Shown piece by piece: positions 2,264 to 39,916 of a stretch of DNA of 45,381 nucleotides. A model generated the notes under the pieces. It was not told the DNA's origin. It was given only the letters and a program-made list of their open reading frames with translations, and made no database searches. Source of the stretch: Actinomycetaceae bacterium (lineage in GTDB: Bacteria; Actinomycetota; Actinomycetes; Actinomycetales; Actinomycetaceae); NCBI GenBank assembly GCA_030524055.1, contig JAUNHH010000011.1, forward strand, positions 36,451 through 81,831, written 5' to 3'. A program made the position numbers and the translations under genes. How positions within the stretch are numbered: position 1 is the first letter of the stretch; every line of letters starts with the position of its first letter.

Positions 2264-2275
2264 CCCCGCCCTCGT
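2264..2275 (-). repeat. Dispersed 12-mer ACGAGGGCGGGG
   Basis: Exact copy on the reverse strand, just upstream of the preferred M23 start (or within its N-terminal codons if the longer form is used). One of 15 exact copies in the window. Confidence 0.85.
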
Positions 2276-2389
2276 AAATGGGAGAAAGAAGCACCTGTGG
2301 AAAGCGCATTTTCGACCTCAACCCAATTGTGGACGAGGACGGGGATGCGCTTCACATTCTGTAGGTTCTAAGCTGGCCAATATTTCCGC

Positions 2390-2395
2390 TAGACT
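2390..2395 (+). promoter_or_regulatory. Candidate -10 TAGACT for rpsB-tsf
   Basis: TAGACT fits the TANNNT pattern seen elsewhere in the window and would start transcription near 2402, just before a perfect hairpin, giving a leader of about 205 nt. No clear -35 element is visible. Confidence 0.35.
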
Positions 2396-2401
2396 TCCTG
2401 T

Positions 2402-2606
2402 GCACCTGCCCAGCAGGTGACTTCGCGTGCCATTTCCGCATACTCCGCTTTTAGGGCGGCACGGGTGCGGGGCAAATCCGGCAATGGTCCCCACGTGGGC
2501 GCCGGAATGTTATGGCACCAGGCCCTTTAGTGCCACTAAAGGGAAGAACCGAATCCGGGCTCTATGAGCCCATATATACCCGCACCCTGCGGGGAAAGGA
2601 TGAGCC
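2402..2606 (+). promoter_or_regulatory. Structured rpsB 5' leader
   Basis: The non-coding stretch before rpsB holds three perfect hairpins: CACCTGC/GCAGGTG at 2403-2419 (loop CCA), CCCTTTAGT/ACTAAAGGG at 2523-2543 (loop GCC) and CCCGCA/TGCGGG at 2579-2593 (loop CCC). The last ends directly before the ribosome-binding purines GGAAAGG. In other bacteria S2 represses rpsB-tsf through the mRNA leader; a similar role here is inferred from position and structure only. Confidence 0.45.
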
Positions 2607-3542
2607 ATGGCAGTCGTTACCATGCGCCAGCTGTTGGAATCTGGCGTCCACTTTGGACACCAAACCCGCCGGTGGAACCCGAAGATGAAGCGCTTTATTC
2701 TCACCGAGCGCAATGGCATCTACATTATCGACCTCCAGCAGACCATTGCTGATATTGATATCGCCTATGACTTCGTAAAAGAAACCGTTGCCCATGGTGG
2801 CACCATTCTTTTCGTGGGCACCAAGAAGCAGGCTCAGGCAGCTGTCGCCGAGCAGGCCTCCCGCGTGGGAATGCCCTATGTCAACCACCGTTGGCTCGGC
2901 GGTATGCTCACCAACTTCAACACTGTTGCCAAGCGTCTTCAGCGCCTGAAGGAACTTGAGCAGATTGACTTCGACGATGTTGCCGCCTCTGGCCACACTA
3001 AGAAGGAATTGCTCATGATGCGTCGTGAGCTCGACAAGCTTGACCGCACCCTGGGTGGCATCCGCGATATGTCTAAGGTTCCTTCCGCCGTGTGGATTGT
3101 GGACCCCAAGAAGGAACACCTCGCTGTTTCTGAAGCACGCAAGCTCAATATTCCGATTGTGGCCATCCTTGATACCAATGCGGATCCGGATGAAGTTGAC
3201 TACCGTATTCCCGGCAATGACGACGCCATCCGCGCTGTCGAATTGCTGACCCGCGTGGTTGCCGAAGCTGTGGCCGAAGGTCTGCTGTCCCGCTCGGCTC
3301 CCCGTAAGTCCGGCCAGGACGATGCTCCCGCGGCCGAGCCTTTGGCCGAATGGGAACGCGAACTCCTTGAAGGCACTGACAACGCTGCTGCTGAAGAGCC
3401 CGCAAAGGCAGAAGCCCCCAAGGAAGAAGCGGCAAAGGACGAGGCCGAAGCTCCTGCCAAGGAAGAAGCACCCGCCGCGCAAGAGGCAGAAAAAGCTGAG
3501 TCAGCTGACGTTGCTGAAGCAGATGCCGAAAAACAGGACTGA
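2607..3542 (+). CDS. rpsB: 30S ribosomal protein S2
   Basis: A 311-residue S2. The core (about 1-235) begins with [20 protein letters not shown] and contains [31 protein letters not shown] and [13 protein letters not shown]. The C-terminal 70 or so residues form an Ala/Glu/Lys-rich, acidic low-complexity tail common in actinobacterial S2 and probably disordered. S2 sits on the 30S subunit near the mRNA exit and is needed for S1 binding where S1 is present. A GGAAAGG ribosome-binding site precedes the ATG. It forms the usual rpsB-tsf unit, with tsf starting 30 nt downstream. Confidence 0.98.
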
Positions 3543-3572
3543 GTAGGGATTAGTTAAGAGAGGAAATGCCAC

Positions 3573-4400
3573 ATGGCGAATTTTACCGCTGCTGATGTGA
3601 AGGCTCTGCGCGAGCAGACCGGCGCCGGAATGATGGATGTCAAGAAGGCACTGACCGAGGCCGATGGCGACGCCGAAAAGGCTCTAGAAATTATCCGCCT
3701 CAAGGGGTTGAAGTCCCTGTCCAAGCGTGAAGGCCGTCAGGCTTCCGCTGGTCTTCTGGCTGCTCGTGTCGAGGGCGGGGTTGGCGTCCTCGTTGAGGTC
3801 AACTCTGAAACTGACTTCGTTGCCAAGAACGAGAAATTCATCGATTTCGCTGGACGCATTCTGGACGCAGCTGTTGCTTCCGGTGCTGCCGATCTTGAGG
3901 CCCTTCTGGCTGCTCCGCTGGGCGAGAGCACCGTTCAGGACTCCCTCAACGAAATGGCCGCTGTTATTGGCGAAAAGCTGGAAGTGCGTCGCGTTGTGCG
4001 CGTTGAGGGCGACAATGTTGACCTCTACCTGCACCAGACCAGCCCCGACCTGCCCCCGCAGGTGGGTGTCTTCGTCGTGACGGACGCTGCTGGCGCCCCC
4101 ATTGCCCGCGACATCGCTATGCACGTTGCGGCCTACAACCCCGCCTACCTGGACCGCGATTCCATCCCTGCTGATGTGCTGGAGAAGGAACGCGCCACCC
4201 TGGAGAAGATCACCCTTGAGGAAGGAAAGCCCGAGGCTATCGTTCCCAAGATCGTTCAGGGTCGTCTGGAAGGCTTCTTCAAGGAGCAGTGCCTGATTGA
4301 TCAGGCATACGCCAAGGAGCCCAGCAAGTCCGTTGGACAGATTCTGTCCGAGGCCGGTGCTGTGGTGACCAATTACGTGCGTGTGCACGTTGGCGCCTGA
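3573..4400 (+). CDS. tsf: Elongation factor Ts
   Basis: A 275-residue EF-Ts, the guanine-nucleotide exchange factor that regenerates EF-Tu-GTP. The N-terminal UBA-like domain carries the signature LREQTGAGMMDVKKAL, followed by KGLKSLSKREGRQASAG and the core repeat ETDFVAKNEKF. The length is normal for the high-GC Gram-positive type. A GAGAGGAAA ribosome-binding site precedes ATG 3573. The gene follows rpsB and is followed by a strong hairpin. An 11/12 copy of the dispersed 12-mer (TCGAGGGCGGGG, 3769-3780) lies in the gene and encodes part of VEGGVG. Confidence 0.98.
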   Translation: MANFTAADVKALREQTGAGMMDVKKALTEADGDAEKALEIIRLKGLKSLSKREGRQASAGLLAARVEGGVGVLVEVNSETDFVAKNEKFIDFAGRILDAAVASGAADLEALLAAPLGESTVQDSLNEMAAVIGEKLEVRRVVRVEGDNVDLYLHQTSPDLPPQVGVFVVTDAAGAPIARDIAMHVAAYNPAYLDRDSIPADVLEKERATLEKITLEEGKPEAIVPKIVQGRLEGFFKEQCLIDQAYAKEPSKSVGQILSEAGAVVTNYVRVHVGA

Positions 4401-5764: not shown

Positions 5765-6657
5765 TGGCATCGCGTTCTCTTTTTACCGGGCTGCGGGATA
5801 TCTTTTCGCCCCAGCCCACCCAAGAACGTCCCCCAGCCCCAACAGGAGCTGGGGGAAGAGACCTTCCAGCGGCAGTCATTACCGCCATTGCCCTGGTTGT
5901 TCTTGTGGTCCTCGGCCTGGCCTTTGCCCCAACCATTGTTGTGGTCCTTGTTGCCGCTTTAGCGCTGAGTGCGACATGGGAAATAGCAGGAGCCCTCGCC
6001 AGGGTCGGTATCCGTATTGCTGTCCCACCGCTGTATGTGGGCGCATTAGGGATGCTGACATGTGCGTGGACTCTTGGCGCCGAAGCCCTAATGGCTGCCC
6101 TCCTGATGACCTTTTTTGCCGTCCTCGCCTGGGTGCTTTTAGGGGATCGTGATCGCCCTCGTGGAGTAGAAGCGACGGCGTCAATATTCGTCGCTGTCTA
6201 CGTGTCTTTTCTTGCCTCCTTTGTGCCCCTCATGCTGCGTGATGCCCCCACGCCATGGGTGCTGATTGTGCACGTCATTGTGACGGCCACTAATGACACG
6301 GGCGGCTGGTTGGCCGGCTCACTTTTTGGGCGCCACCCGATGGCGCCGCGCCTCTCACCTAAGAAATCCTGGGAAGGCTTTATTGGCTCGGTTCTTACCT
6401 GTATCGCTATGGCGATTCCGGCCTTTATGCTGCTGGGTGCCCAGTGGTGGTGGGGTCTAATTGCGGGGGTTCTCACTGCCATCGTGGGTACCTTGGGAGA
6501 CCTCACAGAATCCCTGATAAAACGCGAAGTGGGTCTGAAGGATATGTCGAATCTTTTGCCCGGCCATGGAGGTATTCTTGACCGAGTTGATGCCCAACTA
6601 TTAACCGCCCCACTGTTCTATTTTCTTTTCATCCTTGCACTCGGAGGACCTCAGTGA
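5764..6657 (+). CDS. cdsA: Phosphatidate cytidylyltransferase
   Basis: A 297-residue polytopic membrane enzyme that makes CDP-diacylglycerol from phosphatidic acid and CTP, the entry point to anionic phospholipids. Many hydrophobic segments are visible, for example VITAIALVVLVVLGLAFAP and LLMTFFAVLAWVLLGD. The C-terminal CDP-DAG synthase signature is present around DTGGWLAGSLFGRHPMAPRL, SPKKSWEGFIGS, GDLTESLIKREVGLKD and LPGHGGILDRVDA. The start overlaps the frr stop by one base and the stop overlaps rlmN as GTGA. Confidence 0.95.
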   Translation: MASRSLFTGLRDIFSPQPTQERPPAPTGAGGRDLPAAVITAIALVVLVVLGLAFAPTIVVVLVAALALSATWEIAGALARVGIRIAVPPLYVGALGMLTCAWTLGAEALMAALLMTFFAVLAWVLLGDRDRPRGVEATASIFVAVYVSFLASFVPLMLRDAPTPWVLIVHVIVTATNDTGGWLAGSLFGRHPMAPRLSPKKSWEGFIGSVLTCIAMAIPAFMLLGAQWWWGLIAGVLTAIVGTLGDLTESLIKREVGLKDMSNLLPGHGGILDRVDAQLLTAPLFYFLFILALGGPQ

Positions 6658-7904
6658 CTGTGTCGCGTACCGCTCGCCGGGAAGTGCGCCCTACCGACCA
6701 ATTGCCGGAAGGGGCAACCACTCCTGATGCACGCCCAGTGGTCTCCTTTACTGCCAAGCGGCGCGGAAAGGCTCCCGCGCATTTAGTGGATTTTGACAGC
6801 GCGACCCGACGTGCCATGACAAAAGAAATCGGTCTGCCTGCATTCCGTGCGGACCAATTATCCCGGCACTATTTCGATCATTACATTGCCGATCCGGAAG
6901 CAATGACAGATATTCCGGCTTCCGCAGCAGAAGTGATTTCCGAAAAGCTTTTCCCCGCCCTCGTTACTGAAGTCATGGCCCTGCGTGCAGACCAAGGTAA
7001 GACGATTAAACACCTCTGGGAACTTTATGATGGGGCCCGCGTTGAATCAGTTTTAATGCGTTACCCTGGGCGCACAACATTATGTGTTTCTTCCCAAGCA
7101 GGATGCGGAATGGCATGTCCTTTCTGTGCTACCGGACAAATGGGATTAACTCGTAATCTCTCCACCGCAGAAATTATCGATCAAGTTCGTCGCGCCCACC
7201 TGTCATGCGTTAATGGTGAACTTGATGGTGGCCCCACGAGACTGTCGAATATTGTCTTTATGGGAATGGGTGAGCCTTTAGCGAATTGGCCCGCATTAGT
7301 GGGCGCATTACATCGCCTCACCCAACCGTCCCCAGAAGGTTTTGGAATGTCAGCGCGTGGAATTACCGTCTCCACAGTTGGCTTAGTTCCTGGAATCGAG
7401 AAACTTGCGGCTCCTGGCTTACCTGTCACATTAGCTGTGTCACTCCATGCCCCTGATGACGATTTACGCGATGAATTAATTCCCATTAATTCCCGCTGGA
7501 AAGTTGGGGAACTTCTTGATGCTGCTCGGCAGTATTTCCTTTCTTCAGGGCGACGAGTCTCCATTGAATATGCCCTGATTAAGGATATGAATGACCAAGC
7601 ATGGAGGGCACAACTTCTCGCCGATGAATTAAATCGTCGAGGACATGGATGGGTTCATGTTAATCCGATTCCGTTAAACCCAACGCCGGGTTCTATTTGG
7701 ACTGCCTCTACGCAGCATGCACAAAATGAATTCGTTTCTACCCTGCGCGCTAACGGCATTTCTACGACGATTCGCGATACCCGTGGATCAGATATTGATG
7801 GTGCGTGCGGGCAATTAGCCACTGCAGTTAAAGAGGGACGTCGTCGTCCTTTACCTCACCCGACCGCCCCGTCCCGGGGTTCGAGTTCCAAGGAGGACAC
7901 ATGA
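6654..7904 (+). CDS. rlmN: 23S rRNA (A2503-C2)/tRNA (A37-C2) methyltransferase RlmN
   Basis: A 416-residue radical SAM methyltransferase. The cluster cysteines are C151, C155 and C158 (CGMACPFC), preceded by CVSSQAG; the FMGMGEPL motif follows; and the methyl-carrying C-terminal Cys is C385 in IDGACGQLA. The enzyme methylates A2503 of 23S rRNA and A37 of some tRNAs. It is longer than the Escherichia coli protein because of a basic N-terminal extension of about 45 residues. GTG 6654 overlaps the cdsA stop and follows GGAGGACC. The stop overlaps the ATG of the next gene. Confidence 0.96.
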   Translation: MTVSRTARREVRPTDQLPEGATTPDARPVVSFTAKRRGKAPAHLVDFDSATRRAMTKEIGLPAFRADQLSRHYFDHYIADPEAMTDIPASAAEVISEKLFPALVTEVMALRADQGKTIKHLWELYDGARVESVLMRYPGRTTLCVSSQAGCGMACPFCATGQMGLTRNLSTAEIIDQVRRAHLSCVNGELDGGPTRLSNIVFMGMGEPLANWPALVGALHRLTQPSPEGFGMSARGITVSTVGLVPGIEKLAAPGLPVTLAVSLHAPDDDLRDELIPINSRWKVGELLDAARQYFLSSGRRVSIEYALIKDMNDQAWRAQLLADELNRRGHGWVHVNPIPLNPTPGSIWTASTQHAQNEFVSTLRANGISTTIRDTRGSDIDGACGQLATAVKEGRRRPLPHPTAPSRGSSSKEDT

Positions 7905-8455
7905 GTAACGCCTTCCCCCGCGTGGGCGTTCTGCGCCGCGGATACGATCCCAGTGCCGTTGATGACTTCTTCGTCGATGCCCGACATGCGTACGAGGGCG
8001 GGGCCCCACCCGAAGAATTCAGCTCCGACCAGGTTCGACGGGCCACATTCTTCCTAAAACGCAATGGTTATGAAATCGACTCGGTTGATTCTGCGATGTG
8101 CCGCCTGGAGGCTGCATTTGTTCAGCGTGACCGGGCGGCCTTTATTGCCTCCCATGGCGAACAGGCCTGGTATGAACAGGTCGCTGAACGCGCCACCACC
8201 CTTTACCCGCGCCTGCGTCGGCCTCATGGGGAGCGCTTTTCTCGTCCTGCAGCTGGTGAGAAAGGCTACTCTACAGAAGCAGTTGATGAACTCCTTGATC
8301 GTCTCGCCGCATTTTTCGATGACCGTGGTGATATTGGCGTCGAAGATATCCGTCACAGTGTTTTCCCGATAGCTCGCGCTAAGTCTGCCTACGCGGAAGG
8401 TCCGGTTGATGCCTTTTTAGGGCGCGCTATCGACATCCTCTTGGCGGTGAATTAA
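7901..8455 (+). CDS. DivIVA-motif repeat protein
   Basis: A 184-residue protein starting inside the rlmN stop (ATGA). It shows four spaced copies of a DivIVA-N-terminus-like motif, roughly F-x-x-x-R-x-GY-x4-VD: LRRGYDPSAVDDFF, LKRNGYEIDSVDSAM, GEKGYSTEAVDELLDRL and KSAYAEGPVDAFLGRA. DivIVA N-termini bind curved membranes and recruit growth or division machinery, but the long coiled coil of true DivIVA/Wag31 is absent. It is embedded in a coupled operon between rlmN and dxr. An exact 12-mer (7992-8003) encodes part of YEGGAP. The domain call is good; the function is unknown. Confidence 0.8.
   Translation: MSNAFPRVGVLRRGYDPSAVDDFFVDARHAYEGGAPPEEFSSDQVRRATFFLKRNGYEIDSVDSAMCRLEAAFVQRDRAAFIASHGEQAWYEQVAERATTLYPRLRRPHGERFSRPAAGEKGYSTEAVDELLDRLAAFFDDRGDIGVEDIRHSVFPIARAKSAYAEGPVDAFLGRAIDILLAVN
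7992..8003 (+). repeat. Dispersed 12-mer ACGAGGGCGGGG
   Basis: Exact copy inside the DivIVA-motif gene, where it encodes part of the residues YEGGA. It shows that the word is tolerated or selected inside coding sequence. Confidence 0.85.
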
Positions 8456-14687: not shown

Positions 14688-14723
14688 ACGAGGGCGGGGC
14701 GGGACCTTCACGATGTTCCGCCC
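14688..14723 (+). terminator. 12-mer-containing hairpin after the SRPBCC-like gene
   Basis: An exact ACGAGGGCGGGG (14688-14699) runs into a 9-bp stem, 14697-14705 with 14715-14723 (one G-U pair, loop of 9). It lies about 50 nt after the gene and before proS. No U tract follows. Confidence 0.5.
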
Positions 14724-17093: not shown

Positions 17094-17370
17094 TCTGCGT
17101 ATTGCTGGTTGGCGCCTCGCTGCCTGCGCTGCGTTTCAGCAAGCCGTTAGCGGCCTACCGCCGGGTTATGCCCAGGTGGGCCGCGTCCGGCTGCGGCCCT
17201 CACAGACAGCAGGCTGTGCGGAAGTTATGCAGTGGATGTGCCCGAGTGGCGCAACTACTGCCAACCATGACACAATCAGCACATAACCACGCGCAGCATT
17301 GCTGCGACTCGATGTGACATGTCGAGAGGACGTAGGGGAAGACGATCCTCAAAACCGACTGGAGGTCACA

Positions 17371-18221: not shown

Positions 18222-18282
18222 GTGCAGCATATATATATAGGGACGTCTATTTTCTCGCTATAGGTGTCTATGTATTTCATCG

Positions 18283-18940: not shown

Positions 18941-18963
18941 ACGAGGGCGGGCCCCGCCCTCGT
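18941..18963. terminator. Inverted pair of 12-mers between lysE and the surface-protein gene
   Basis: ACGAGGGCGGG and the exact reverse-strand 12-mer CCCCGCCCTCGT abut to make an 11-bp inverted repeat with a 1-nt centre. It lies between two convergent genes and probably serves both directions. The opposite-strand hairpin just beyond it supports termination there. Confidence 0.65.
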
Positions 18964-21143: not shown

Positions 21144-21193
21144 ACGAGGGCGGGGCCCGCACCTGATGATCTGGGTGCGAACCCCGCCCTCGT
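21144..21193. terminator. Inverted pair of exact 12-mers between tdk and aceE
   Basis: ACGAGGGCGGGG (21144-21155) and its exact complement (21182-21193) form the base of a long stem extended by CCCGCACC/GGGTGCG. It lies between the convergent tdk and aceE genes, an arrangement well suited to bidirectional termination. Confidence 0.75.
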
Positions 21194-24722: not shown

Positions 24723-24796
24723 GGGCCTGTAGCTCAGTTGGTCAGAGCGCTGCGTTTACACCGCAGAGGTCGTCGGTTCGAGACCGGCCGGGCCCA
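24723..24796 (+). tRNA. tRNA-Val (anticodon UAC)
   Basis: A complete cloverleaf: acceptor GGGCCTG with CGGGCCC (one G-U pair), D-arm GCTC/GAGC, anticodon stem CTGCG/CGCAG with loop TTTACAC (anticodon TAC, reading GUA and related Val codons), T-arm GTCGG/CCGGC with loop TTCGAGA, and discriminator A. The 3' CCA is not encoded. A terminator follows within 60 nt, so it is a single-tRNA transcription unit. Confidence 0.97.
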
Positions 24797-24821
24797 CTTT
24801 CCTTGAGTTTTCATTCGTGGT

Positions 24822-24857: not shown

Positions 24858-24869
24858 ACGAGGGCGGGG
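24858..24869 (+). repeat. 12-mer ACGAGGGCGGGG, left flank of the tandem array
   Basis: Exact copy immediately before the tandem array. Together with the reverse copy at 25352-25363 it brackets the array as an inverted pair. Confidence 0.85.
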
Positions 24870-25351: not shown

Positions 25352-25363
25352 CCCCGCCCTCGT
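25352..25363 (-). repeat. 12-mer ACGAGGGCGGGG, right flank of the tandem array
   Basis: Exact reverse-strand copy closing the tandem array. The following 190 bp up to the cupin gene hold only a candidate -10 (TACACT, 25499-25504). Confidence 0.85.
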
Positions 25364-26006: not shown

Positions 26007-26039
26007 ACGAGGGCGGGGCAGTGCAGATTAGCACTGTCC
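26007..26039. terminator. 12-mer-containing hairpin between cupin and PhzF genes
   Basis: An exact 12-mer (26007-26018) leads into a 9-bp stem (GGGCAGTGC with GCACTGTCC, one G-U pair). It lies between convergent genes. No U tract follows in either direction, so termination is inferred from position. Confidence 0.5.
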
Positions 26040-26901: not shown

Positions 26902-26980
26902 ATAGTCCTCCAGGTGATCGTCGCTCGCAGAAAGAGCAATCCTAATTACGGAAAGGCTCTCCATATACTGGCGTTGCTCT

Positions 26981-29075: not shown

Positions 29076-29728
29076 TTGTCCCCTCCAATCAACGCAGCAA
29101 AATAGTCTCGGGAATGTAGTAACGCGGCTCCACCACAACGATGGAAGGTCTGCGAAATAGCAGATTGAGAAGAGCGTTCTTCTTTTGCAATCTCGACCTG
29201 CGTGCGCCCAAATAATAGTCCTGCAGTAATCCGCCGTTCTTTCGGCTTTAAACGGGCAATAATATGATCGCGCAAAGTCAAAGCGGCATTCACACTCGCC
29301 ACTAAAGCATGATCAATATTCGTATCCTCACCGGCCCGCCAACCTGTACGCAGCCATGACAATCCTGAATCCTCCATTGCGTGCACGTGATCAATTGCCT
29401 CGCGGGCACTCCACCATGCGGAGCCGTCCTGAATGCCCGTGGGCTGGTCAGGATTCAAAGGCTTCGCGCTTCCTGCTCCAATCCCAAAACGTAAATCCCG
29501 ACCTTCCGGCAAAATAAGGTGCGCCCGCAAGGTCACGTTCACAGCAGTCGCCAAGTCAGCGGCAACCAACTGAAATTCATCGCCAGTGGTCGCCCAGGGC
29601 ATTTGAGTGAGAGCAAGCCCGTCGCTAGCCCTGCGTAAAGCGGCGAGAAACTCTTCCTGAGCTGCCGCTCTATCAGCAAGTTGGCGAGAGCCCACAATGT
29701 CAGCAAGCACCGCATACTGTATTCCCAT
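29072..29728 (-). CDS. SatD-family protein: cyclase-like domain plus HTH
   Basis: A 218-residue protein of the SatD family. The N-terminal 145 residues show AVLADIVGSRQ, TTGDEFQLV, RFGIGAGSAK and DGSAWWSAREAI, which in order and spacing recall class III nucleotidyl cyclases (metal Asp in DIVGS, GDxF, RxGIxxG, AR). The last 70 residues contain a sigma-region-4-like HTH (LKPKERRITAGLLFGRTQVE and IAKEERSSQSAISQTFHRCG). Predicted role: a cytoplasmic regulator sensing or making a nucleotide. ATG 29728 has TATCGT 6 nt upstream, hence leaderless. A palindromic operator lies directly behind that -10. SatD biology is poorly known; the cyclase link is my inference. Confidence 0.75.
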   Translation of the reverse strand: MGIQYAVLADIVGSRQLADRAAAQEEFLAALRRASDGLALTQMPWATTGDEFQLVAADLATAVNVTLRAHLILPEGRDLRFGIGAGSAKPLNPDQPTGIQDGSAWWSAREAIDHVHAMEDSGLSWLRTGWRAGEDTNIDHALVASVNAALTLRDHIIARLKPKERRITAGLLFGRTQVEIAKEERSSQSAISQTFHRCGGAALLHSRDYFAALIGGDK

Positions 29729-29843: not shown

Positions 29844-29880
29844 ACGAGGGCGGGGCCGCTCCTTAAAGAAACAGCCCCGC
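29844..29880. terminator. 12-mer-containing hairpin downstream of ndh
   Basis: An exact 12-mer (29844-29855) whose GCGGGGC pairs with GCCCCGC at 29874-29880. It lies 23 nt past the ndh stop and upstream of the SatD-like operon, so it probably ends ndh transcription. Confidence 0.55.
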
Positions 29881-29902: not shown

Positions 29903-31243
29903 CTATTCCTTCCCAGATACGAGTTTCCCAGAGGAATATGCGCCCAAACGTTCCAAGGCCAAGCGTCCCACCAATTGCTGGTTAGTCGTGGTGCGCTGAG
30001 AACGTGCACCAGAAATAAAGCTAATAAACCAGTGCAAAAGGGTGCCCACCTGCGACTTAAAGCCAACGATATAGAGCAGGTGCAGGAAGCACCAGGCCAC
30101 CCAGGCGAAGAAGCCGGTCAATCGGAACTTCCCCATCTGCACAACGGCTTTAAAGCGAGCAATGGTCGCCATCGAGCCTTTATCTTTATAGGAAAAAGCA
30201 GCATGACGTGGAGCCCTGCCAACAAGGCGAGCCTTAATTAAATCCGCAGCAAAACGCGCTGATTGAATGGCTCCCTGTGCAACGCCAGGAACTCCTGGGA
30301 CGGCCATCATGTCGCCCAGGACAAAGATTTCTGGGTGATTAGGGACAGTCAGGTCAGCGTTAACAACAACCCGGCCAGCGCGGTCAATTTCGCAGCCTGT
30401 GCGCTCAGACAGGACTTTGCCAAGTGGCGACGCCTGGACACCAGCGGCCCATACCTTACACACGGATTCAATTCGCTCGATATTGCCCTCTTTGTCGCGA
30501 ATCGTCACTGAAGTGTCATCCACATCGGTGACAATGCGTCCGGTGAGGATTTCCACGCCCATTTTCTCTAGCGATTTCCGGGTGCTTTCAGAAAGGCGTT
30601 CGTCGAAAACAGGCAGGGGGCGATCAGCGCCATCCACTAAAATGACACGCGCCATGCGTGGATCGAAATTCCTGAACTCGCCACGCAATGTCTTTGAGGC
30701 TAATTCACGGATTTGCCCGGCCATCTCTACGCCAGTTGGACCTGCCCCAACCACAACAAAGGTCAGGAGTTTCGCAATCTGCGCTGGATCAGATTCAATT
30801 TCTGCTAACTCGAAGGCGCCAAAAATCCGGGCACGCAATTCAAGGGCATCGTCAATGGTTTTCATTCCGGGAGCAAAGACAGCAAATTCATCTTTCCCGA
30901 AATAGGATTGGCCGGCTCCAGCGGCCACAATCAGCGTGTCATAGGAGGTTGTTTCAGCGCGATTGTGATTGCGCCAATGGACGATTTTATTGTCCGTATC
31001 AATATCTTCAACCAGCGCCTGCAAAATGGTGATATTACGTTGGCCTTTAAGGATTTCTCGGCTAGAAGGAGCGATTTCCCCTTCAGAAAGAATGCCTGTG
31101 GCCACCTGATAAAGCAGGGGTTGGAAAAGGTGGTGGGAGGTCTTTGCTAGCAGGGTAATATCAGCATCTGCATGCCGCAGCCGCCGTGCCGCAATAAGGC
31201 CAGCAAAACCCGATCCAATAATGACAATGCGATGCCTGCTCAC
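29903..31243 (-). CDS. ndh: Type II NADH:quinone oxidoreductase (NDH-2)
   Basis: A 446-residue flavoprotein with two Rossmann folds: the FAD motif IVIIGSGFAGLIAARRL at the start and the NAD motif VVVGAGPTGVEMAGQ in the middle, with later FVLGDMMAVPGVPGVAQGAI near the FAD/quinone site. The C-terminus carries hydrophobic helices (FAWVAWCFLHLLYIVGF) for membrane docking. It feeds electrons from NADH to menaquinone without pumping protons. GAGGAGG precedes GTG 31243. It stands as a single-gene unit. Confidence 0.93.
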   Translation of the reverse strand: MSRHRIVIIGSGFAGLIAARRLRHADADITLLAKTSHHLFQPLLYQVATGILSEGEIAPSSREILKGQRNITILQALVEDIDTDNKIVHWRNHNRAETTSYDTLIVAAGAGQSYFGKDEFAVFAPGMKTIDDALELRARIFGAFELAEIESDPAQIAKLLTFVVVGAGPTGVEMAGQIRELASKTLRGEFRNFDPRMARVILVDGADRPLPVFDERLSESTRKSLEKMGVEILTGRIVTDVDDTSVTIRDKEGNIERIESVCKVWAAGVQASPLGKVLSERTGCEIDRAGRVVVNADLTVPNHPEIFVLGDMMAVPGVPGVAQGAIQSARFAADLIKARLVGRAPRHAAFSYKDKGSMATIARFKAVVQMGKFRLTGFFAWVAWCFLHLLYIVGFKSQVGTLLHWFISFISGARSQRTTTNQQLVGRLALERLGAYSSGKLVSGKE

Positions 31244-31387: not shown

Positions 31388-31418
31388 GGGCGGGGTGTGA
31401 ATTAAACCCCGCCCTCGT
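31388..31418. terminator. 12-mer-containing hairpin downstream of lipA
   Basis: GGGCGGGG (31388-31395) pairs with the reverse-strand exact 12-mer (31407-31418) around an 11-nt loop. It lies 18 nt past the lipA stop on the reverse strand. Confidence 0.65.
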
Positions 31419-31435: not shown

Positions 31436-32503
31436 CTAGGCTGACACCGCCTGACGGGCTGCCTCACGCGCTGCCCGAGCAGCCCTGCGCGAGCGTAGAT
31501 TCTCCAAAACAGTGCTGGCTTCCTGCAAAGTCGATCCCTGCTCCGCTAAATGCGCTAAACGCTGAGGAATCTCGCGGCCGCGCGCCTGCATGCCGCGGGC
31601 CCACAGTGCTCCTGCGCGATAGGAAGAACGCACCAACGGCCCTGCCATTACCCCGGCAAAACCAATAGCCTCCGCTTCAGCTGCCAATTCGAGGAATTCT
31701 TCTGGGTGGACCCACCTGTCAATAGGATGGTGTAGGGGAGAGGGGCGCAAATACTGAGTCAATGTCAATAAATCGCAGCCAGACTCATGTAACGCCTGCA
31801 TTGCTTCAAGAATCTCGTCGCGAGTTTCCCCCATACCTAAAATCAGATTCGATTTCGTCATCATTCCTAAATCGGAGGCGTGACGAATCATTGCAAGGGA
31901 ACGCTCAAAACGAAATGCCGGGCGAATCTTTTTAAAGATGCGCGGCACCGTTTCCAGATTATGGGCGAAAACTTCCGGGCCAGCCTCAGCAATAAGCTCA
32001 ACGCCATCCATTTGCCCACGGAAATCATCGACTAATAACTCCACCCCTGTTGACGGAGTTTTCTCGTGAATAAGGCGGCAGGTTTCGGCATATAGCCAAG
32101 CAGCACCATCAGGTAAATCATCGCGAGTAACGCCAGTAATAGTGGCATAGCGCAAACCTAAACCGGCAACAGATTCCGCTACACGCCGCGGTTCGTCGGT
32201 GTCATATTCTGTTGGTCGTCCGGTGGCAATATTGCAAAAATCGCAGCGCCTGGTGCAGATTCTCCCACCTAAAAGGAATGTGGCTTCGCGGTCTTCCCAG
32301 CATTCGTGGATATTGGGACAATTCGCTTCGGCGCACACAGTATGTAATCCCTGCGAGGCCGATAATGACCGCATATCCATATAGTTTTCGCCTGAGCGCG
32401 CATGTTGGCGAATCCAATCAGGCTTATTCTCAATAGGAGTTTCCGCATTACGCACTTCAATACGAAGAAGTTTGCGGCCCTCAGGTTCGGGAATAGTGCT
32501 CAC
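31436..32503 (-). CDS. lipA: Lipoyl synthase
   Basis: A 355-residue radical SAM enzyme that inserts two sulfurs into protein-bound octanoyl groups, making lipoate for E2 and GcvH proteins. The auxiliary cluster motif CX4CX5C is [12 protein letters not shown] and the radical SAM motif CX3CX2C is CTRRCDFC; the C-terminal [11 protein letters not shown] is also conserved. The GTG start overlaps the lipB stop as GTGA, so lipA is the second gene of a coupled lipB-lipA operon. Ala/Arg-rich C-terminal tail. Confidence 0.97.
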
Positions 32504-33228
32504 AGGGTTCCTTTAGGTGAAGTTGTTGGTGCCTGCGCTTCAAGTCGCTCAAAATCTGCGCTCCCGTCTTCCCAGACAAGGGGGGTTCCTGGGCGTTCAA
32601 GGCAGGAATCAATAGAGTGAACGAGGGCGGGGACCATTCTCCGCGCGACAACGGCAACTGTTGTATCCACACCTTCTTGGTCTAAAGAGGTCACATCAGC
32701 ATCGGTGAGGCCGCAGGGAATAATCCCAGAAAACGCGAGTTCCGGATCAATATTGACATTTAATGCCAGGCCATGAAGAGTCACTGCACGGGCAATCTTT
32801 AAGCCAATCGCGCAGATTTTCCTATCGGTTTTACCCGGTTCAACAATCCAGGCTCCAGCACGTCCAGAAATAGCCACGGCTGGAATATTCCAAATGGACC
32901 GTAAAGCGCCTAAAACCCCGCCCTCGACACTGCGAATCCACGCCACAGAGTCAACAGGTTCGCTCAATTTCACGATCGGGTACACCACTAATTGTCCGGG
33001 CCCGTGCCACGTTGCCGACCCAGCCCTATCTGTATGAATAACGGGCAGTGAAGAATCAGGAATGTCTTCGGGGCGTGTATGCCGACCAGCAGTCCACGTC
33101 GGAGTGAACTCGGCCAAAATAAGGACGTCGTCTGCGCCAGCCAGTACTTCTCCATGAAGGAGTCGCTGAAGGGCATCGACTTCCTGGTAGGCAATAGGGC
33201 CCCGAGGAAGTAAATCAATGATGCGCAT
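32500..33228 (-). CDS. lipB: Octanoyltransferase
   Basis: A 242-residue enzyme that transfers octanoyl from acyl carrier protein to lipoyl domains, the step before lipA. Motifs: [56 protein letters not shown] (catalytic Lys) and GIIPCGLTD (catalytic Cys). ATG 33228 has TACCAT exactly 6 nt upstream and no Shine-Dalgarno, so it is probably leaderless. One exact and one near-exact 12-mer (32621-32632, 32916-32927) lie inside the gene. Confidence 0.96.
32621..32632 (+). repeat. Dispersed 12-mer ACGAGGGCGGGG
   Basis: Exact copy inside lipB, encoding on the reverse strand the residues VPALVH. Confidence 0.85.
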
Positions 33229-33259: not shown

Positions 33260-34108
33260 ATGACATCACTGTGGACCCTCGCTGACCTAACGGCGTATAT
33301 GGATACTCTTTTCCCCCCAAGCACTGCTGAAGAATGGGATCGTGTGGGATTGGTTTTAGGTAATCCCGTGCGGGAAATCCGCAAGATTCTTCTCGCTGTC
33401 GATCCCGTTGCTGCCACTGTTGATGAGGCTATTGCCACAGGGGCTGATCTTTTATTGACCCACCATCCTCTTTACCTTCGGGGTACATCTTTCCTCCCGG
33501 AAAGCGACCCTAAAGGCAGCCTTGTTGCCCGCCTTATTCGCGCCAATATTGGCCTTTTTACAGCGCACACTAATGCTGACGTCGCAGCACATGGAGTTGC
33601 GCAATCTCTAGCTGACCTGGTTGGACTAGCGGATACAGAGGTTCTTGCCCCGGCAGGCGTCGATAGTGAGGGTCGGCCGATTGGCCTGGGACGAGTTGGC
33701 ACTGTCCCCGAAATGACATTAGGTGCTTTTGCTGATGAAGTCGCCCGTAAACTTCCTGCGGGTCCACATGGCCTTTTCGTTGGCGGTGACGAATCACAAC
33801 TCATTCACCGCGTTGCCGTCAGTGGCGGGTCTGGTGACCATTTCCTTAGCGCTGCTCGTTTCGCGAGGGCGGATGTCTACCTCAGTGCAGACCTGCGCCA
33901 TCACCCTGCCTCGGAATCCTTAGAAGGGGGCAGCCCTGCCCTCCTATGCGGCAGCCATTGGGCAACAGAATGGCCATGGCTTCCTGTCTTAGCTCGCCAA
34001 CTGCGTGACGAAGCAGCGCGAAGCGGGGTGTCCTTAGAGGTGGAAGTCTCTACTATTGTCACCGAGCCATGGACCGCCCACCGCCCAACCATCGGAGGAA
34101 CCCAGTGA
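33260..34108 (+). CDS. Nif3-like dinuclear metal centre protein
   Basis: A 282-residue protein of the NIF3/YbgI family (COG0327, GTP cyclohydrolase I type 2-like). Features: WDRVGLVLGNPVREIRKIL, ATGADLLLTHHPLYLRG (His pair of the metal site), GLFTAHTNADVAAHGV (His and Asp) and GSGGDHFLSAA in the second half, with CGSHWATEWP near the end. Proteins of the family form toroidal hexamers with two metals; the physiological reaction is unsettled. It probably begins at the mRNA 5' end. The stop overlaps the GTG of the next gene; in many actinobacteria it pairs with a zinc-ribbon protein, as here. Confidence 0.92.
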   Translation: MTSLWTLADLTAYMDTLFPPSTAEEWDRVGLVLGNPVREIRKILLAVDPVAATVDEAIATGADLLLTHHPLYLRGTSFLPESDPKGSLVARLIRANIGLFTAHTNADVAAHGVAQSLADLVGLADTEVLAPAGVDSEGRPIGLGRVGTVPEMTLGAFADEVARKLPAGPHGLFVGGDESQLIHRVAVSGGSGDHFLSAARFARADVYLSADLRHHPASESLEGGSPALLCGSHWATEWPWLPVLARQLRDEAARSGVSLEVEVSTIVTEPWTAHRPTIGGTQ

Positions 34109-34839
34109 ATGCCAGCGCTGCTAGTCAGCTTCTACTCTTGGAATTGCAAGGCCTAGACCTGCGTGAATCCCGTCTGCGTCATACTCGCGACTCTCATCCT
34201 GCTCACGCTACCGTGCGTGAACTTGCTGGCCGCGCGGAAGATCTGAATCGTGCGGCGATTAGCCAAAGTGCAGTCATTGCCGATATTGAACGCGAAATTG
34301 CTCGATGCGAGGCAGAAATTGAGAAAGTCCGCGCTCGTCGGGAACGGCAGCAGGGTCGTATTGATCGCAATGAAGTGCCTCTGCGTGACATTAATCCAAT
34401 GCAGCATGAAATTGCGCAAATGGATACACGTCTGACTACTTTGGAAAATGCGCAACTCGCCTCAGAAGAAAAAGCCGAAGCTGCACGCGATGCTCAGGCC
34501 GCTATGAAAGAAGAAGCCGAGGCTATTCGTACCGATGTGAATAAGGCGAAAGCCGAATTCGCTGCCGATATTGAGGCCACCGATAATGAACTTCGTGAGG
34601 TTCTTGCTGCCAGGCGGGACCTTGTTGAACGTATTGGCAGCGATCTGATTGCTGAATATGACCGCTCACGTAAACGCAATGGGGCACTTGCCGTTATTGA
34701 AGTGCGTGATGGGGTGCCGCAAGGAATCGCTACGGAACTATCTCCCGCGGAACTCGAGGACATCCGGCGCACGCCAGAAGATGAACTCTATTGGGCAGAA
34801 TCCACTGGCCAAATCGTGGTGCGTACATCTTCCGAATGA
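34105..34839 (+). CDS. Coiled-coil protein of the C4 zinc-ribbon family lacking its cysteines
   Basis: A 244-residue protein, nearly all helical coiled coil (residues about 5-190, heptads rich in Ala, Glu, Arg, with the family segment INPMQHEIAQMDTRLTTLE). It belongs to the C4-type zinc-ribbon/DUF164-like family that follows nif3 in actinobacteria. In relatives the end reads C-x-x-C then CPECG; here the equivalent positions read VRDGVPQG and WAESTGQIVVR, so all four zinc cysteines are gone. The coiled coil is intact and the gene is translationally coupled to nif3 (GTGA), so the protein is probably still made. GTG 34105 follows GGAGGA. Confidence 0.85.
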   Translation: MNASAASQLLLLELQGLDLRESRLRHTRDSHPAHATVRELAGRAEDLNRAAISQSAVIADIEREIARCEAEIEKVRARRERQQGRIDRNEVPLRDINPMQHEIAQMDTRLTTLENAQLASEEKAEAARDAQAAMKEEAEAIRTDVNKAKAEFAADIEATDNELREVLAARRDLVERIGSDLIAEYDRSRKRNGALAVIEVRDGVPQGIATELSPAELEDIRRTPEDELYWAESTGQIVVRTSSE

Positions 34840-34850
34840 CGAGGGCGGGG
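34839..34850 (+). repeat. 12-mer ACGAGGGCGGGG, likely serving as ribosome-binding site
   Basis: Exact copy beginning on the last base of the preceding stop and ending 3 nt before ATG 34854. Its GAGGGCGGGG can pair with the 16S rRNA tail, so the word seems to double as the Shine-Dalgarno sequence. Confidence 0.8.
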
Positions 34851-34853
34851 GAA

Positions 34854-36218
34854 ATGGTCACTGTTACTCTCAAGGAATTTGGCGGTGTTGAACAGGCCAG
34901 ATTGTGGTTAGAGTACGGTCCAGAAATAGCCACCCATACCTTTATTGGCTACCTTCGATTGGCGCGCTATTTTGGCAATGCTATTTCCCTCGACAGGAAT
35001 CAGGTTCTTGACGGGATTATCCTTTTGTCACTAGGACCCAAACGTCTCCTTGAATGTTTGGGCGCGGAACCTGGACAGACCAATCCCGTGATTATTCGCG
35101 GCGCTGCGCCCAGTGGAGATGGCGACTATGAGTACGGCGGCACACGATTACAGCAACGTCAGAATGCCGCTGCAGTATTTACTGCCTATCAGAAGGAAAT
35201 GGTCGAGCAATTAGGGGTTTCTTCGGCCCAAATTGCCAATGAACCACAGTATATTGCTGATGAATTGTCCTGGGTATATGTCGATCATGATCAGGCACTC
35301 CAGCGCGCACTTCGTCGAAATGCTGTCGTCTTCACTCAGAACGCTCACTATGTCGATATTGCGACGCAGCGTGCCGAATGGCTTCAGGCGATGGAAGACG
35401 GCTGGTTCACATTAGATACCTGGGCGGTTGTCTCCTCCGAGCAATTTTCTCACTCCCTGAAAGACGAAAAAGTATTACGCACGATCACTGCGCGGAATCG
35501 TGATTTATGGGAGTCATTTAAGGTAGCGAGCGACACATGTGGAACCCGCCGCTCTGCGATTCTGTCGTCCCTCAAGGAAGAGACCTCCCTATCTGACGCA
35601 CAAAAGAGAATTCTTTATGACTGGTGGGATCGCACATTGTGTGCAGAAATCGCCACTGTCAATGGCGATCAGATGATCCGGCTGACCCCTTATAGCGAAG
35701 AAGCTTATGGAAGCGAGCAGAATCTTGCTTCCGCCCTCGGATTGGTGACTCGACCCACGTGGCGACAGGGCATTCTTGGTGCGCTCATGCCCAAACTTTT
35801 GCCTGTCAGCCATCCTGAGGTGGTGATTGGGGGCCAAATTATTGAGACGCTGAGCTTTATTTCAGACAGTGACTACACCGCTCTCGTTGCACATACGCGT
35901 AGTTTGGTGACGTCATTTTGGGAAAAGCCCACATCGAAAGCCCGACTTTTTGATCTGTCTATGGCGACACTGAATTACGAAATTGATTCTCAGCGGTGGG
36001 GGAGAATTGTTATTACATTGGCTTTGCGCATTTCCCTATTAGTTGCCGCTTTGGCTGTGATTGCTATTGTGGAAATGATGGGCTATACCTTCGGTGGGAT
36101 GACTGCAACGGTCAGCGCATGTGCCGGCTTTGTTGCTGCACTACCATGGAGTGATATACGTTTTCTTTTCCGCCTCAGTCCATGGAAAATGCATGGAACG
36201 CTACGAATAGAGAAATGA
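34854..36218 (+). CDS. Protein of unknown function with two C-terminal membrane segments
   Basis: A 454-residue protein that I do not recognise. The first 390 or so residues look soluble and mixed alpha/beta, without clear motifs; the end has two membrane helices (RIVITLALRISLLVAALAVI, then MTATVSACAGFVAALPW), so the bulk is probably on one side of the membrane. The start is set at ATG 34854 because the purine-rich 12-mer lies just upstream; ATG 34836, which overlaps the preceding stop as ATGA, is an alternative. It is in line with nif3 and followed 1 nt later by a Nudix gene, so the four may share one transcript. Confidence 0.75.
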   Translation: MVTVTLKEFGGVEQARLWLEYGPEIATHTFIGYLRLARYFGNAISLDRNQVLDGIILLSLGPKRLLECLGAEPGQTNPVIIRGAAPSGDGDYEYGGTRLQQRQNAAAVFTAYQKEMVEQLGVSSAQIANEPQYIADELSWVYVDHDQALQRALRRNAVVFTQNAHYVDIATQRAEWLQAMEDGWFTLDTWAVVSSEQFSHSLKDEKVLRTITARNRDLWESFKVASDTCGTRRSAILSSLKEETSLSDAQKRILYDWWDRTLCAEIATVNGDQMIRLTPYSEEAYGSEQNLASALGLVTRPTWRQGILGALMPKLLPVSHPEVVIGGQIIETLSFISDSDYTALVAHTRSLVTSFWEKPTSKARLFDLSMATLNYEIDSQRWGRIVITLALRISLLVAALAVIAIVEMMGYTFGGMTATVSACAGFVAALPWSDIRFLFRLSPWKMHGTLRIEK

Positions 36219-36817: not shown

Positions 36818-37633
36818 TTAGGTGGTCACTAGGGTCGCAATAGTGCGCAGGCCACCGCCCACTTTTTTCGTCGCCCCAAGTTCAACACTATGCGCGCCAT
36901 GCGGCGCTCCTTTAGCGTCAATAAAGGAAATAGTGTCAAGGACATCGGTGATCGTCTGGGCAATGTCATTAGGGTCGCTGGCCTGTGCCCCGCCCTCGTG
37001 ACGCAAAAGTGAATGCACCACTAAACCGCGCCATTTCTTTGCATCATGACTAATGGTTTGGCGTTGCCCATTTATCTCGCGAACAACGGATAACTCCACA
37101 CAATGCCCTCCCGCTGTTGGGCAGGCTTGGCGATACGGGCCAGAACGGCAATCAAGGATAATTCGATCCGTAACTTCGGCTTTTAAGGCCCGCTCTAAAT
37201 ATGGCCGCCATAATTGCGTCATTGCACCCACACCCGGCAATTTGACCCCCATCGCCAGACGGTAATTCGGGATATAGTCCCCCGGTGCCACTACACCAAA
37301 AAGGCCAGAGAAAATACGCACACGCTCGGATAAAATCTCCGCCGGAATATCCCCCAAGTTTGCTGCCTCAAAAAGAACGCCGCTAAAAACCTGGCGTGCA
37401 GGCCCGCACGGAGAATCCATTAATCGTGCATTCGCCTCTAAAGCCTCTTCGCGCCCGCGTGCACCCACTCCAAGAATCTGTGCGGCCTCCTGCGTATTCC
37501 CCAAATGTTCCACATGAGAGATGACCTGAGAACGCACATCAGATAACTCAGGGAAAATCAATGTTGACAGATCTAAAGTCGGCCCGGTTACAGGGGCTGT
37601 TTTCCCCTCGGATGGGGGTAACCACATCAGCAT
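36818..37633 (-). CDS. yaaA: Peroxide stress protein YaaA family
   Basis: A 271-residue protein of the YaaA/DUF328 family, recognised by the start MWLPPSEGKTAPV, RVRIFSGLFGVVAPGDYIPNYRLAMG and the middle LDCRSGPYRQ, with VVHSLLRH near the end. In Escherichia coli YaaA limits free iron during peroxide stress and binds DNA. The gene reads away from rnpB, with about 85 bp between them. An exact 12-mer copy (36988-36999) lies within the gene and encodes part of LRHEGGAQ. Confidence 0.9.
   Translation of the reverse strand: MLMWLPPSEGKTAPVTGPTLDLSTLIFPELSDVRSQVISHVEHLGNTQEAAQILGVGARGREEALEANARLMDSPCGPARQVFSGVLFEAANLGDIPAEILSERVRIFSGLFGVVAPGDYIPNYRLAMGVKLPGVGAMTQLWRPYLERALKAEVTDRIILDCRSGPYRQACPTAGGHCVELSVVREINGQRQTISHDAKKWRGLVVHSLLRHEGGAQASDPNDIAQTITDVLDTISFIDAKGAPHGAHSVELGATKKVGGGLRTIATLVTT
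36988..36999 (-). repeat. Dispersed 12-mer ACGAGGGCGGGG
   Basis: Exact reverse-strand copy inside yaaA, encoding part of HEGGAQ. Confidence 0.85.
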
Positions 37634-37704: not shown

Positions 37705-37710
37705 TAAACT
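37705..37710 (+). promoter_or_regulatory. -10 element TAAACT of rnpB
   Basis: TAAACT followed by 6-7 nt places transcription start at 37717-37718, the first base of the P1 helix. The same TANNNT-N6 spacing is seen at the leaderless genes. Confidence 0.5.
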
Positions 37711-37717
37711 AGGGTCC

Positions 37718-38091
37718 GCGAATGAGATAGTCAGGCGGCCGCGGCGCACTTCGCTGCGTCGAGGAACGTCCGGGCTCCACAGGGCAAGGTGGTGGCTAAC
37801 GGCCACCCGGGGTGACCCGCGGGACAGTGCCACAGAAAAGACACCGCCACGGATTTTCCGGGGTAAGGGTGAAAAGGTGGGGTAAGAGCCCACCAGCGGT
37901 GCGGGTGACCGCATCGGCTAGGTAAACCCCACTTGGAGCAAGACCGAGCAGCAGACGCCACGGGTGGCCCGCCCAATGTCTGCGGGTAGGTTGCTAGAGG
38001 CCTGCGGCAACGCAGGTCCCAGATGGATGGTCGCCACTGCGTCGCTTCGGCGACGCAGGACAGAACCCGGCGTATCGACTATCTCATTCGC
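37718..38091 (+). ncRNA. rnpB: RNase P RNA (class A)
   Basis: The catalytic RNA of RNase P, which matures tRNA 5' ends. The closing P1 helix is a perfect 15-bp pairing: GCGAATGAGATAGTC (37718-37732) with GACTATCTCATTCGC (38077-38091). Inside are the conserved GAGGAACGTCCGGGCTCC, the P4-adjacent AGTGCCACAGAAAAGAC, GGTAAGGGTGAAAAGGTG and the 3' AGATGGATGGTCGCC followed by AGAACCCGGCGTATCGACT. The length (374 nt) is usual for actinobacteria. No clear terminator follows before the convergent gene at 38163. Confidence 0.96.
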
Positions 38092-38162
38092 CCACTCATC
38101 ACTAGGTGGACTATGCGGCGTCACCTGACAGCCAGCGCACGTGGCCTGCACTCCTCCGGAAG

Positions 38163-38594
38163 TTACTCTGTTGGAACTTCAGAGTCCTCATCCACCCCTG
38201 CTGCCTCACTCTGGGGCCCTGCCCCTTCACTCTGGGGTCCGACTCCGTCGCTTTGCGACTCCAATGCTCCACTTTGGAAAAGACGGTCCCGAGCAATCCG
38301 CTCAAGTCTCTCCCGTTCAATAGAGGTTCCAGGGAGGGTGGAATCAGAGTTTTTCCGCAGCTCTTCTTGTAGCTCTACCGCTTCCTTGGCTTGTTCTAGC
38401 TGCCGCTTATTTTCAAGGCGCTGTTCCTGCTTCTGCTGCAGCTCAATAAGCCCGTCAACATGATGCCCTCGTCTGTCGTAACCAAACAGCAAAATAAAAA
38501 GGCACAAGGCGACCGCAAAGAGAACGCGAAGACTATTCTTCCCTCGCGCTACACGGTTTTTCTTCCCGTCGTCACGTGAATCGTCATCCACCAA
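38163..38594 (-). CDS. Single-pass coiled-coil membrane protein, FtsB/DivIC-like
   Basis: A 143-residue protein: basic cytoplasmic head (KKNRVARGKNS), one membrane helix (LRVLFAVALCLFILLFGY), then a coiled coil (LIELQQKQEQRLENKRQLEQ onward) and the segment SIERERLERIARDRLF, which resembles the end of FtsB/DivIC septum-formation initiators. The tail is an acidic repeat (ESQSDGVGPQSEGAGPQSEA). The start is TTG 38594, with GAGGA 6 nt upstream; GTG 38591 is an alternative. It follows the proline-rich membrane protein by 14 nt in the same operon. The family call is tentative. Confidence 0.6.
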   Translation of the reverse strand: MVDDDSRDDGKKNRVARGKNSLRVLFAVALCLFILLFGYDRRGHHVDGLIELQQKQEQRLENKRQLEQAKEAVELQEELRKNSDSTLPGTSIERERLERIARDRLFQSGALESQSDGVGPQSEGAGPQSEAAGVDEDSEVPTE

Positions 38595-38608
38595 GTCAGG
38601 TCCTCACT

Positions 38609-39916
38609 TCATTGGTCCTCGAGTGACACCGACCAATACACTGGCTGAGTAATTTCCCCATTCTCCTGAGCAATACCAACGGTCACAGTATTAATCTCGT
38701 TAATATCTTCGGTGGGAACAAGGAATACATACACGATTTCCGTATAGCCCTTGTCTGTAGGGCGAGTATGGGCCGTCAATTGCGACCATGAACGAAGATC
38801 GCTGCTATTGAGTTCCAATGTTGCCTGCGGTATGGGCGAATTAGAGGAGTATTCATGTACTAGCAGAGACATAATTGTCATGCCCTCTGCGGATTCTAAA
38901 GCGGGTAAATCTGATTGGGCTGACTGTGGAATATTCTTAAAGTCAACACCGATTGACTGAAAAAAATAGGTGCGCTGTGTATCGGCTGAATCTTGCTGAA
39001 AGATGATTTGCCAGTCTTTGGCCGCTGCAGGATTATATATTTCGGCGCCAAGTCCGTCAGGTGCGCTTGAATTCAGTGTGCGAATACGGGGTGGGTACGG
39101 TTCCTCATCGGTTGCCTCCCGCACCGGATATTCCTTGAAGATGTCCTTGATATCCAGATCCGACTGATTGAGATCGGGAAGCGTCGGCGTTGCTGGTTCG
39201 CGCGTCCGCTCAAATTGGCGCGCAATTTCTGCACTTTTTTCGCGTTCGAGGACATTCTCGGAAGAATTGTTATCGCCACTATCCGAAAGAAAACGCCCAA
39301 AGGGAATAAGAAGGGCGATGACAATCATAATAATTGTCCCCACATGGGACTTTTTCTTTTTCTGCGTGGAGCCGGGCCGCGGCCTGGGCTGCCCCGTTTC
39401 GGTGTAATAGGGGTTCGTTGAAGCAAAAGTCGGGGAGGGGCTTTGTGCGTTTGACTGGCCCGCAGATGTGCCCTGCTGTTGGGGCCGTGTGGACTGTGTG
39501 GGACGAGGGCGGGGCGCGGATTGAGACGAGGTTTTCTGCCCGCTAGGCGCAGCAGTGTGCGCCTGAGGCGAGGAAGAAAAATTCCTCAGAGACTCCTCGG
39601 ATATGGAGCCCAAGGGGAGAAGATCAGCACCACTGGACAGACTTGGCGAAGCTGACCAGGCTCCGCCCTCGTCAATTGACGACGAATCGTCATTGCTCCA
39701 CGACAAACTGGGCGCAGCTGACCACCCCGGATCGAGTGGAGGTGGGGGCGGGGAGAAATCATCGGTCAAACTGCCAGTATCCTCAGATGAAGTAAAGAAA
39801 GACATCTGAGGTGCTGAACTATAGGACAGGCCGTCATCCTGACCATGACTAGGAAGGTCAGTTAATGGCATCCCCTCATGACTCTGGTTTCCCCCAGTGC
39901 TGCGCCCGCCCGTCAT
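38609..39916 (-). CDS. Proline/serine-rich single-pass membrane protein, unknown
   Basis: A 435-residue protein that I do not recognise. Residues 1-188 are low complexity and rich in Ser, Pro, Gln ([24 protein letters not shown]), then KKKKSHVG and a membrane helix (about 191-208, [13 protein letters not shown]), then an exported domain of about 220 residues. This inside-out layout is typical of actinobacterial envelope or division proteins with disordered cytoplasmic tails. ATG 39916 overlaps the ppgK stop (ATGA). An exact 12-mer encodes APRPRP and a one-mismatch copy encodes DEGGAW. Confidence 0.75.
39503..39514 (+). repeat. Dispersed 12-mer ACGAGGGCGGGG
   Basis: Exact copy inside the proline-rich membrane protein gene, encoding APRPRP on the reverse strand. 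A one-mismatch copy is at 39661-39672. Confidence 0.85.

Follow-up and report, generated by a model that had tools for sequence, protein, structure and literature searches.

A 12-base word, ACGAGGGCGGGG, is scattered in both orientations through the 45,381-nucleotide stretch analyzed here (the window; part of contig JAUNHH010000011.1 of an Actinomycetaceae bacterium), and 1001 exact copies were found in the whole genome. The word, with its fuller form AT(T/G)NACGAGGGCGGGGC, is best read as the species dialect of a DNA uptake sequence (DUS) shared by the genus and maintained by the mechanism proposed below, a reading given a probability of about 0.66; its reader is probably a competence machine built on a Tad pilus. 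An earlier note on the window had likened the word to the DNA uptake sequences of Neisseria and Haemophilus, to chi sites and to HIP1. Among these analogies a putative uptake role agrees best with the intergenic enrichment, the inverted pairs at converging gene ends and the species dialects.

Abundance, motif and placement of the word

The assembly (3,034,260 bases, 47 contigs) contained 500 forward and 501 reverse copies of ACGAGGGCGGGG, compared to 0.5 to 1.6 expected from Markov models of orders 1 to 4 and 8 expected from order 5; these expectations were scaled up from a 486-kb sample, and the order-5 model already absorbs part of the word. The reversed word, taken as a control, occurred once. 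The suggestion that the word behaves as a genome signal word in an actinobacterium was borne out by this excess of 1001 copies over about one expected. The count is far from expectation, the copies are found throughout the genome rather than in this region only, and both orientations are used, as had been described.

Within the window, 16 exact copies (nine forward and seven reverse) and 28 sites with at most one mismatch were counted, against 0.01 and 0.40 expected from shuffled sequences. The 15 exact copies recorded earlier were all recovered in their places, and the total was corrected to 16. All eight near copies recorded earlier were real, with four further ones at 1021, 1291, 2333 and 15213, and C was the next base after 10 of the 16 exact copies, in agreement with its description as the usual following base.

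The motif was derived from 113 sites in 386,831 bases and then from 143 exact sites in 485,831 bases of the genome, the sampled part having a GC content of 55%. The word is non-palindromic, spans 12 to 17 bp and is conserved from position -4 to +12, outside which just weak T-rich positions were observed. At the 77 sites not wholly coding, the preferred bases were A at -4 (79% of sites), T at -3 (81%) and C at +12 (83%), and the 66 coding sites showed like preferences at these positions, only weaker. One-mismatch neighbors in 387 kb were concentrated at core positions 0, 6, 10 and 11 (100 of 112), the remaining eight positions accounting for 12. An iterated matrix recovered 427 sites in the larger sample, corresponding to 879 per Mb.

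Crude gene calls made for this analysis placed 76 of the 143 exact sites between genes, 66 in coding sequence and one at a boundary, which agrees with the earlier description of copies in both locations. Intergenic DNA makes up 14.9% of the bases, and the site density was 1049 per Mb there compared to 160 per Mb in coding DNA, an approximately 6.6-fold difference in the 486-kb sample. For sites lying between two called genes, gaps of up to 600 bases held 3.24 sites per kb between converging genes, 1.18 between tandem and 1.00 between divergent genes, and longer gaps held 0.44 to 0.86. Twelve close inverted pairs were formed by 24 of the 143 exact sites. The two strands were interleaved along a 254-kb contig (C3; 38 and 32 copies), and the degenerate form of the word occurred on all seven sampled contigs at 0.66 to 0.86 per kb. 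Its widest gap, 8.2 kb, holds core genes including rimM, trmD and rnhB. A check for mobile DNA in the sample found only two tyrosine-recombinase genes and no island.

Alignments covering 20 of the 66 coding sites were free of indels near the site in 51 of 66 cases, which points to substitution as the usual origin of the copies. Indels were nonetheless more frequent near coding sites (15 of 66) than at places picked at random (16 of 330), so variable parts of proteins seem to be favored.

The second widest gap of the degenerate form coincides in part with a gene for an 1815-amino-acid RHS-repeat protein (stretch L013, 12297-17744).

Genus restriction and dialects

In 96 sampled family genomes of other genera, ACGAGGGCGGGG occurred 0 to 15 times, and 7 to 10 copies were found in four relatives of the same genus. 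The extended pattern ATNGACGAGGNCGNGG was present 298 times in the own genome, 80 to 114 times in seven relatives, 1 to 13 times in four others and 0 to 9 times in 139 sampled genomes of other genera.

The genus uses dialects of one shared core, CGAGGNCG. Across 35 genus genomes, the window word reached 93 to 190 copies in five genomes other than the own and stayed below 42 in the rest. The variant ACGAGGCCG[G/T]GG had 376 to 673 copies in nine relatives, compared to 169 in the own genome, and these nine carried 3 to 10 window words, the two counts being paired by list order. Actinomyces culturomici (G109), a named member of the genus, contained 190 window words, against 2 to 11 in the other eight genomes counted with it; an apparent strand bias in its list of places was dropped, the totals being 101 forward and 89 reverse and the listed places only part of them. 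In stretches of G009, G042 and G085 the 12-mer list was headed by ACGAGGCCGGGG, with ACGAGGCCGTGG also high in G009 and G042, and the dialect of G164 was CGAGGACG, with 93 copies in 120 kb versus 14.1 expected. For G168, G149 and G144 the fitted motifs slid into codon periodicity and were discarded.

Between genes, CGAGGNCG combined with the best of the four bases outnumbered each of 40 permuted words in 13 of the 19 genomes sampled, the exceptions being G171, G167, G170, G158, G161 and G159. In the own genome, intergenic CGAGGGCG reached 113 copies, and permuted words averaged 2.9. When intergenic 8-mers were ranked without bias in small samples, a core word came first in 4 of 23 genomes (the window species, G166, G009 and G164), and on reading the lists a core-like word was found among the six listed 8-mers of eight more. 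In a tree of nine concatenated proteins, which did not include G162 and in which several deep nodes were weak, the window species stood beside G166 (support 0.92), both carrying G at the variable base; G009, G042, G155 and G160, which use C, formed one clade. The dialects broadly follow the tree.

Other repeats were encountered in the relatives. In G167, which lacks the genus word, the top word is part of a distinct, longer repeat around CCTGAGGCAAAGG, with 14 sites in stretches L170, L171, L238 and L248 conserved over much of a 37-base model. A second intergenic repeat of G042 (L122, L123, L234 and L256), with ATCCGGAT and GGATAGGTTA, has 8-mers that were counted 13 to 24 times in 11 kb between genes and is present in G009 too; it is probably another repeat family. 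Intergenic clusters of GAACAGAGCGGAC-like repeats were observed in G157 (L166, L167 and L252), with 12 to 21 copies of the component 8-mers in 6 kb.

Competence genes, the uptake reading and its alternatives

Judged from its genes, the host has a competence machinery. A ComEA gene (SLBB and helix-hairpin-helix) adjoins ComEC, and directly before the window (L025, 13527-16212) lie DprA and a Mg-chelatase gene, which we take to be of the ComM type, followed by the tyrosine recombinase of the window. The two strong T2SSE matches of the genome are both Tad-type. In one locus (tad-1 type), tadA is accompanied by tadB and tadC as separate genes and by three genes resembling pseudopilins, of which two gave Tad-family matches; the other (tad-2 type) comprises tadA, a fused tadB/C, a Flp-like pilin and two further small genes. 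ComEC was found in 33 of the 35 genus genomes, the two without it being incomplete. This set resembles the Flp/Tad transformation system of Micrococcus luteus, for which the available parts of PMC4322843 describe a need for two tad loci, of which one carries flp and a fused tadB/C, and for comEA and comEC; one difference is that this paper never uses the term 'uptake sequence'.

The relation of the word to tad-1 was followed across the genus. Genomes were assigned a tad-1 status from the position and score of their T2SSE match, and this was checked by alignment, which confirmed tad-1 in six relatives and found only tad-2-type loci in G152, G158 and G167. The tad-1-type ATPase was missing in G152, G158, G161, G162 and G167 (96 to 99% complete) and was not seen in G150 (70% complete) and G156 (a draft of 310 contigs). 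An apparently clean link between word and tad-1 drawn from word counts was weakened by the presence of the core in genomes without tad-1; intergenic counts and inverted pairs partly restore it. Genome-wide, 0 to 3 inverted pairs of the core were found in the five genomes without tad-1, compared to a median of 14 (range 0 to 65) in the 28 genomes with it, the own genome included (Mann-Whitney p 0.0006; G150, with 3 pairs, and G156, with 18, were excluded). In G158 and G161, CGAGGCCG was almost restricted to coding DNA (coding versus intergenic copies: 61 versus 1 and 29 versus 2), and in G152 it had 56 coding and 10 intergenic copies. Such confinement is consistent with decay of unconstrained copies after the loss of uptake, and codon preference would account for it too.

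Several features of an uptake sequence were present together, namely, high copy number, balanced orientation, a defined motif, intergenic and paired placement, dialects, restriction to the genus among the sampled genomes, and the machinery genes. The DUS of Neisseriaceae, as described in the available parts of PMC3630211, are similar in their length of about 10 to 12 bp, their many copies in permissive intergenic places, their inverted pairs tied to terminators, and their dialects with an invariant core that follow phylogeny. They differ in that their letters are unrelated and that the host here belongs to a Gram-positive phylum, with a Tad-type T2SSE in place of a type IVa pilus with ComP and with uptake that is so far putative. 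The uptake signal sequences (USS) of Pasteurellaceae, with the consensus AAGTGCGGT, share the many genome-wide copies and the occurrence in terminators (PMC13020248, parts available); their letters are likewise unrelated, the flanking T-rich positions are weak here, the phylum is another and the pilus probably so.

From these features we infer competence, biased uptake, a receptor and molecular drive. In a competent cell, a Tad/Flp pilus made from the two tad loci would bind free DNA, and a minor pilin or other surface part would prefer DNA bearing the word; the tad-1 pseudopilins are the candidate receptor and ComEA is a second candidate. DNA of relatives would enter through ComEA and ComEC and be recombined, aided by DprA and ComM. 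As word-bearing fragments would enter more often, recombination would copy the word into permissive places, chiefly gaps between genes and converging gene ends, where pairs could also make hairpins. A shift in the base preferred by the receptor would give rise to dialects. The genus, including A. culturomici, is predicted to be naturally competent and to exchange DNA along dialect lines.

A wider claim is given even odds, that the word represents a third, independently evolved uptake-sequence system, the first outside Proteobacteria and the first in a Gram-positive phylum, with a Tad/Flp competence pilus as its reader and at least three dialects in one genus, in which loss of tad-1 lets most intergenic copies decay and codon-held ones persist as a readable fossil of lost sex. 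If true, the ability to recognize self DNA arose once more, with a different pilus, and the genus would provide a Gram-positive setting in which to address the receptor question. Uptake sequences are named for Neisseriaceae and Pasteurellaceae in the available parts of a 2016 review (PMC5031613) and a 2026 terminator survey (PMC13020248). In one open-access library no earlier report of such a word in this group was found, most subscription papers lying outside its scope; the word's own letters gave two unrelated papers, and 'uptake sequence' with Schaalia or Actinomycetaceae gave nothing.

Several observations weigh against the uptake reading and its tie to tad-1. G156, in which tad-1 was not seen, has 18 pairs and 108 window words (by list order), and few pairs were found in some genomes with tad-1 (G171, 0; G144 and G149, 3 each; G145, G151 and G159, 4 each). 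Three of 15 genomes with tad-1 (G171, G170 and G159) did not pass the permuted-word test. The tad-1 losses amount to at most two independent events on the tree, and the four sampled genomes without tad-1 are rather AT-rich (49 to 57% GC, compared to 55% in the own genome). G152, which lacks tad-1, is still intergenically enriched (8 copies versus a mean of 0.9), and G152, G158 and G161 retain the core in coding DNA. The spacing of the degenerate form is near random rather than even. The exact word at 14688 had no counterpart in the 17 relatives shown, as judged by eye; four gaps were covered in the relatives, of which only this one holds an exact window site. With so few losses and with tad-1 genomes that have few pairs, the link between word and tad-1 is support and not proof.

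Among the alternatives, an iterated word of the HIP1 kind, maintained through methylation, repair or biased gene conversion with no part in uptake, is unlikely. HIP1 is likewise a short word iterated across genomes, and we know of no settled function for it, so a word without a recognized role is conceivable; some tad-1 genomes without the word and the tad-1-less genome that keeps intergenic copies would also suit such an origin. HIP1 is, however, a palindromic octamer, and the word described here is longer, non-palindromic, about half intergenic and partly paired, so this analogy of the earlier note did not hold. The dialects and the full competence gene set would also exceed what a HIP1-like word predicts.

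Binding by a chromosomal protein for nucleoid structure, segregation or recombination (chi, KOPS, matS), at a site that is simply very frequent, is improbable. The high copy number and the presence of the degenerate form on all sampled contigs without a gap above 8.2 kb speak for it. Chi and KOPS are strand-polar relative to replication, whereas no polarity was seen genome-wide (500/501) or along the 254-kb contig, origin and terminus not having been located, and the likeness to chi proposed earlier was given up. The preference for intergenic gaps and for inverted pairs at converging ends also argues against such a site, as does the change or fading of the word among species of one genus, which would be unusual for an essential site.

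A terminator arm or a small mobile repeat, such as a repetitive extragenic palindromic (REP) element or a miniature inverted-repeat transposable element (MITE), is very unlikely. The inverted pairs fold well between converging genes and the indel excess near coding sites would suit it, but most exact sites (119 of 143) stand without a partner in the nearest 60 bases, 66 of 143 lie in genes, and most coding alignments (51 of 66) lack an indel near the site. Flank conservation stops near -4 and +12, leaving no longer conserved unit. Neither window hairpin is among the listed T-tailed terminator-like sites, and in the window species the hairpin that follows tsf lacks the CGAGG core.

Least credible is a side effect of base composition or codon usage in GC-rich actinobacteria, which the enrichment of CGAGGNCG in coding DNA with a frame bias, even where it is absent between genes, would favor, but which is refuted for the window genome by its GC content of only 55% in the sample, the single copy or so expected genome-wide, the excess of intergenic CGAGGGCG over permuted words and the single copy of the reversed word.

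Copies and other features inside the window

An inverted pair of exact copies (21144..21193, with 21144 on the + and 21182 on the - strand) lies between converging genes, and its fold has two stems, one outer and one inner (-43.7 kcal/mol, z -7.1). A near copy at 18941 (+) overlaps the exact copy at 18952 (-) in a second hairpin (18941..18963; -21.9 kcal/mol, z -3.9) between the converging genes 18264-18923 (+) and 19058-20290 (-).

Intergenic copies were located at 2264..2275 (-), between the called gene 1641-2153 (-) and rpsB 2607-3542 (+); at 14688..14699 (+), in the gap ahead of a class II tRNA synthetase gene (14781-16601) that is proS by inference; at 24858..24869 (+), 60 bases 3' of tRNA-Val (24723-24797); at 29844..29855 (+), between genes 29072-29728 (-) and 29903-31243 (-); and at 31407..31418 (-), between the latter and gene 31436-32503 (-). 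The copy at 25352..25363 (-) lies in a stretch with no called gene, and that at 26007..26018 (+) in a hairpin region about 40 bases beyond the 3' end of gene 26059-26964 (-).

The exact copy overlooked earlier, 6953..6964 (-), lies within a radical-SAM gene (6654-7904, +) with a weak match to the RlmN N-terminal model. Further copies were found within gene 7901-8455 (+) at 7992..8003 (+), where the word codes for YEGGA, antisense within gene 32500-33228 (-) at 32621..32632 (+), within gene 36818-37633 (-) at 36988..36999 (-), and where genes 34105-34839 and 34836-36218 (+) overlap, at 34839..34850 (+). The choice of start decides whether the copy at 39503..39514 (+) falls within the long open reading frame 38609-39916 (-) or between genes. 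A one-mismatch copy lies within tsf (3769..3780, +), and others start at 1021, 1291, 2333, 12173, 15213, 18941, 28493, 32916, 39661, 41640 and 45183.

Ribosomal protein S2, encoded at 2607-3542, resembles the 'sunset domain' variant model, with a score of 515 bits that falls short of the 710-bit cut-off. The segment GAGGACGTAGGGGAAGACGATCCTC (17326-17350), just 5' of a conserved gene starting MRGTYTRGV, is little changed in the relatives shown; it gave no match in Rfam at the gathering threshold and resembles an RNA leader hairpin.

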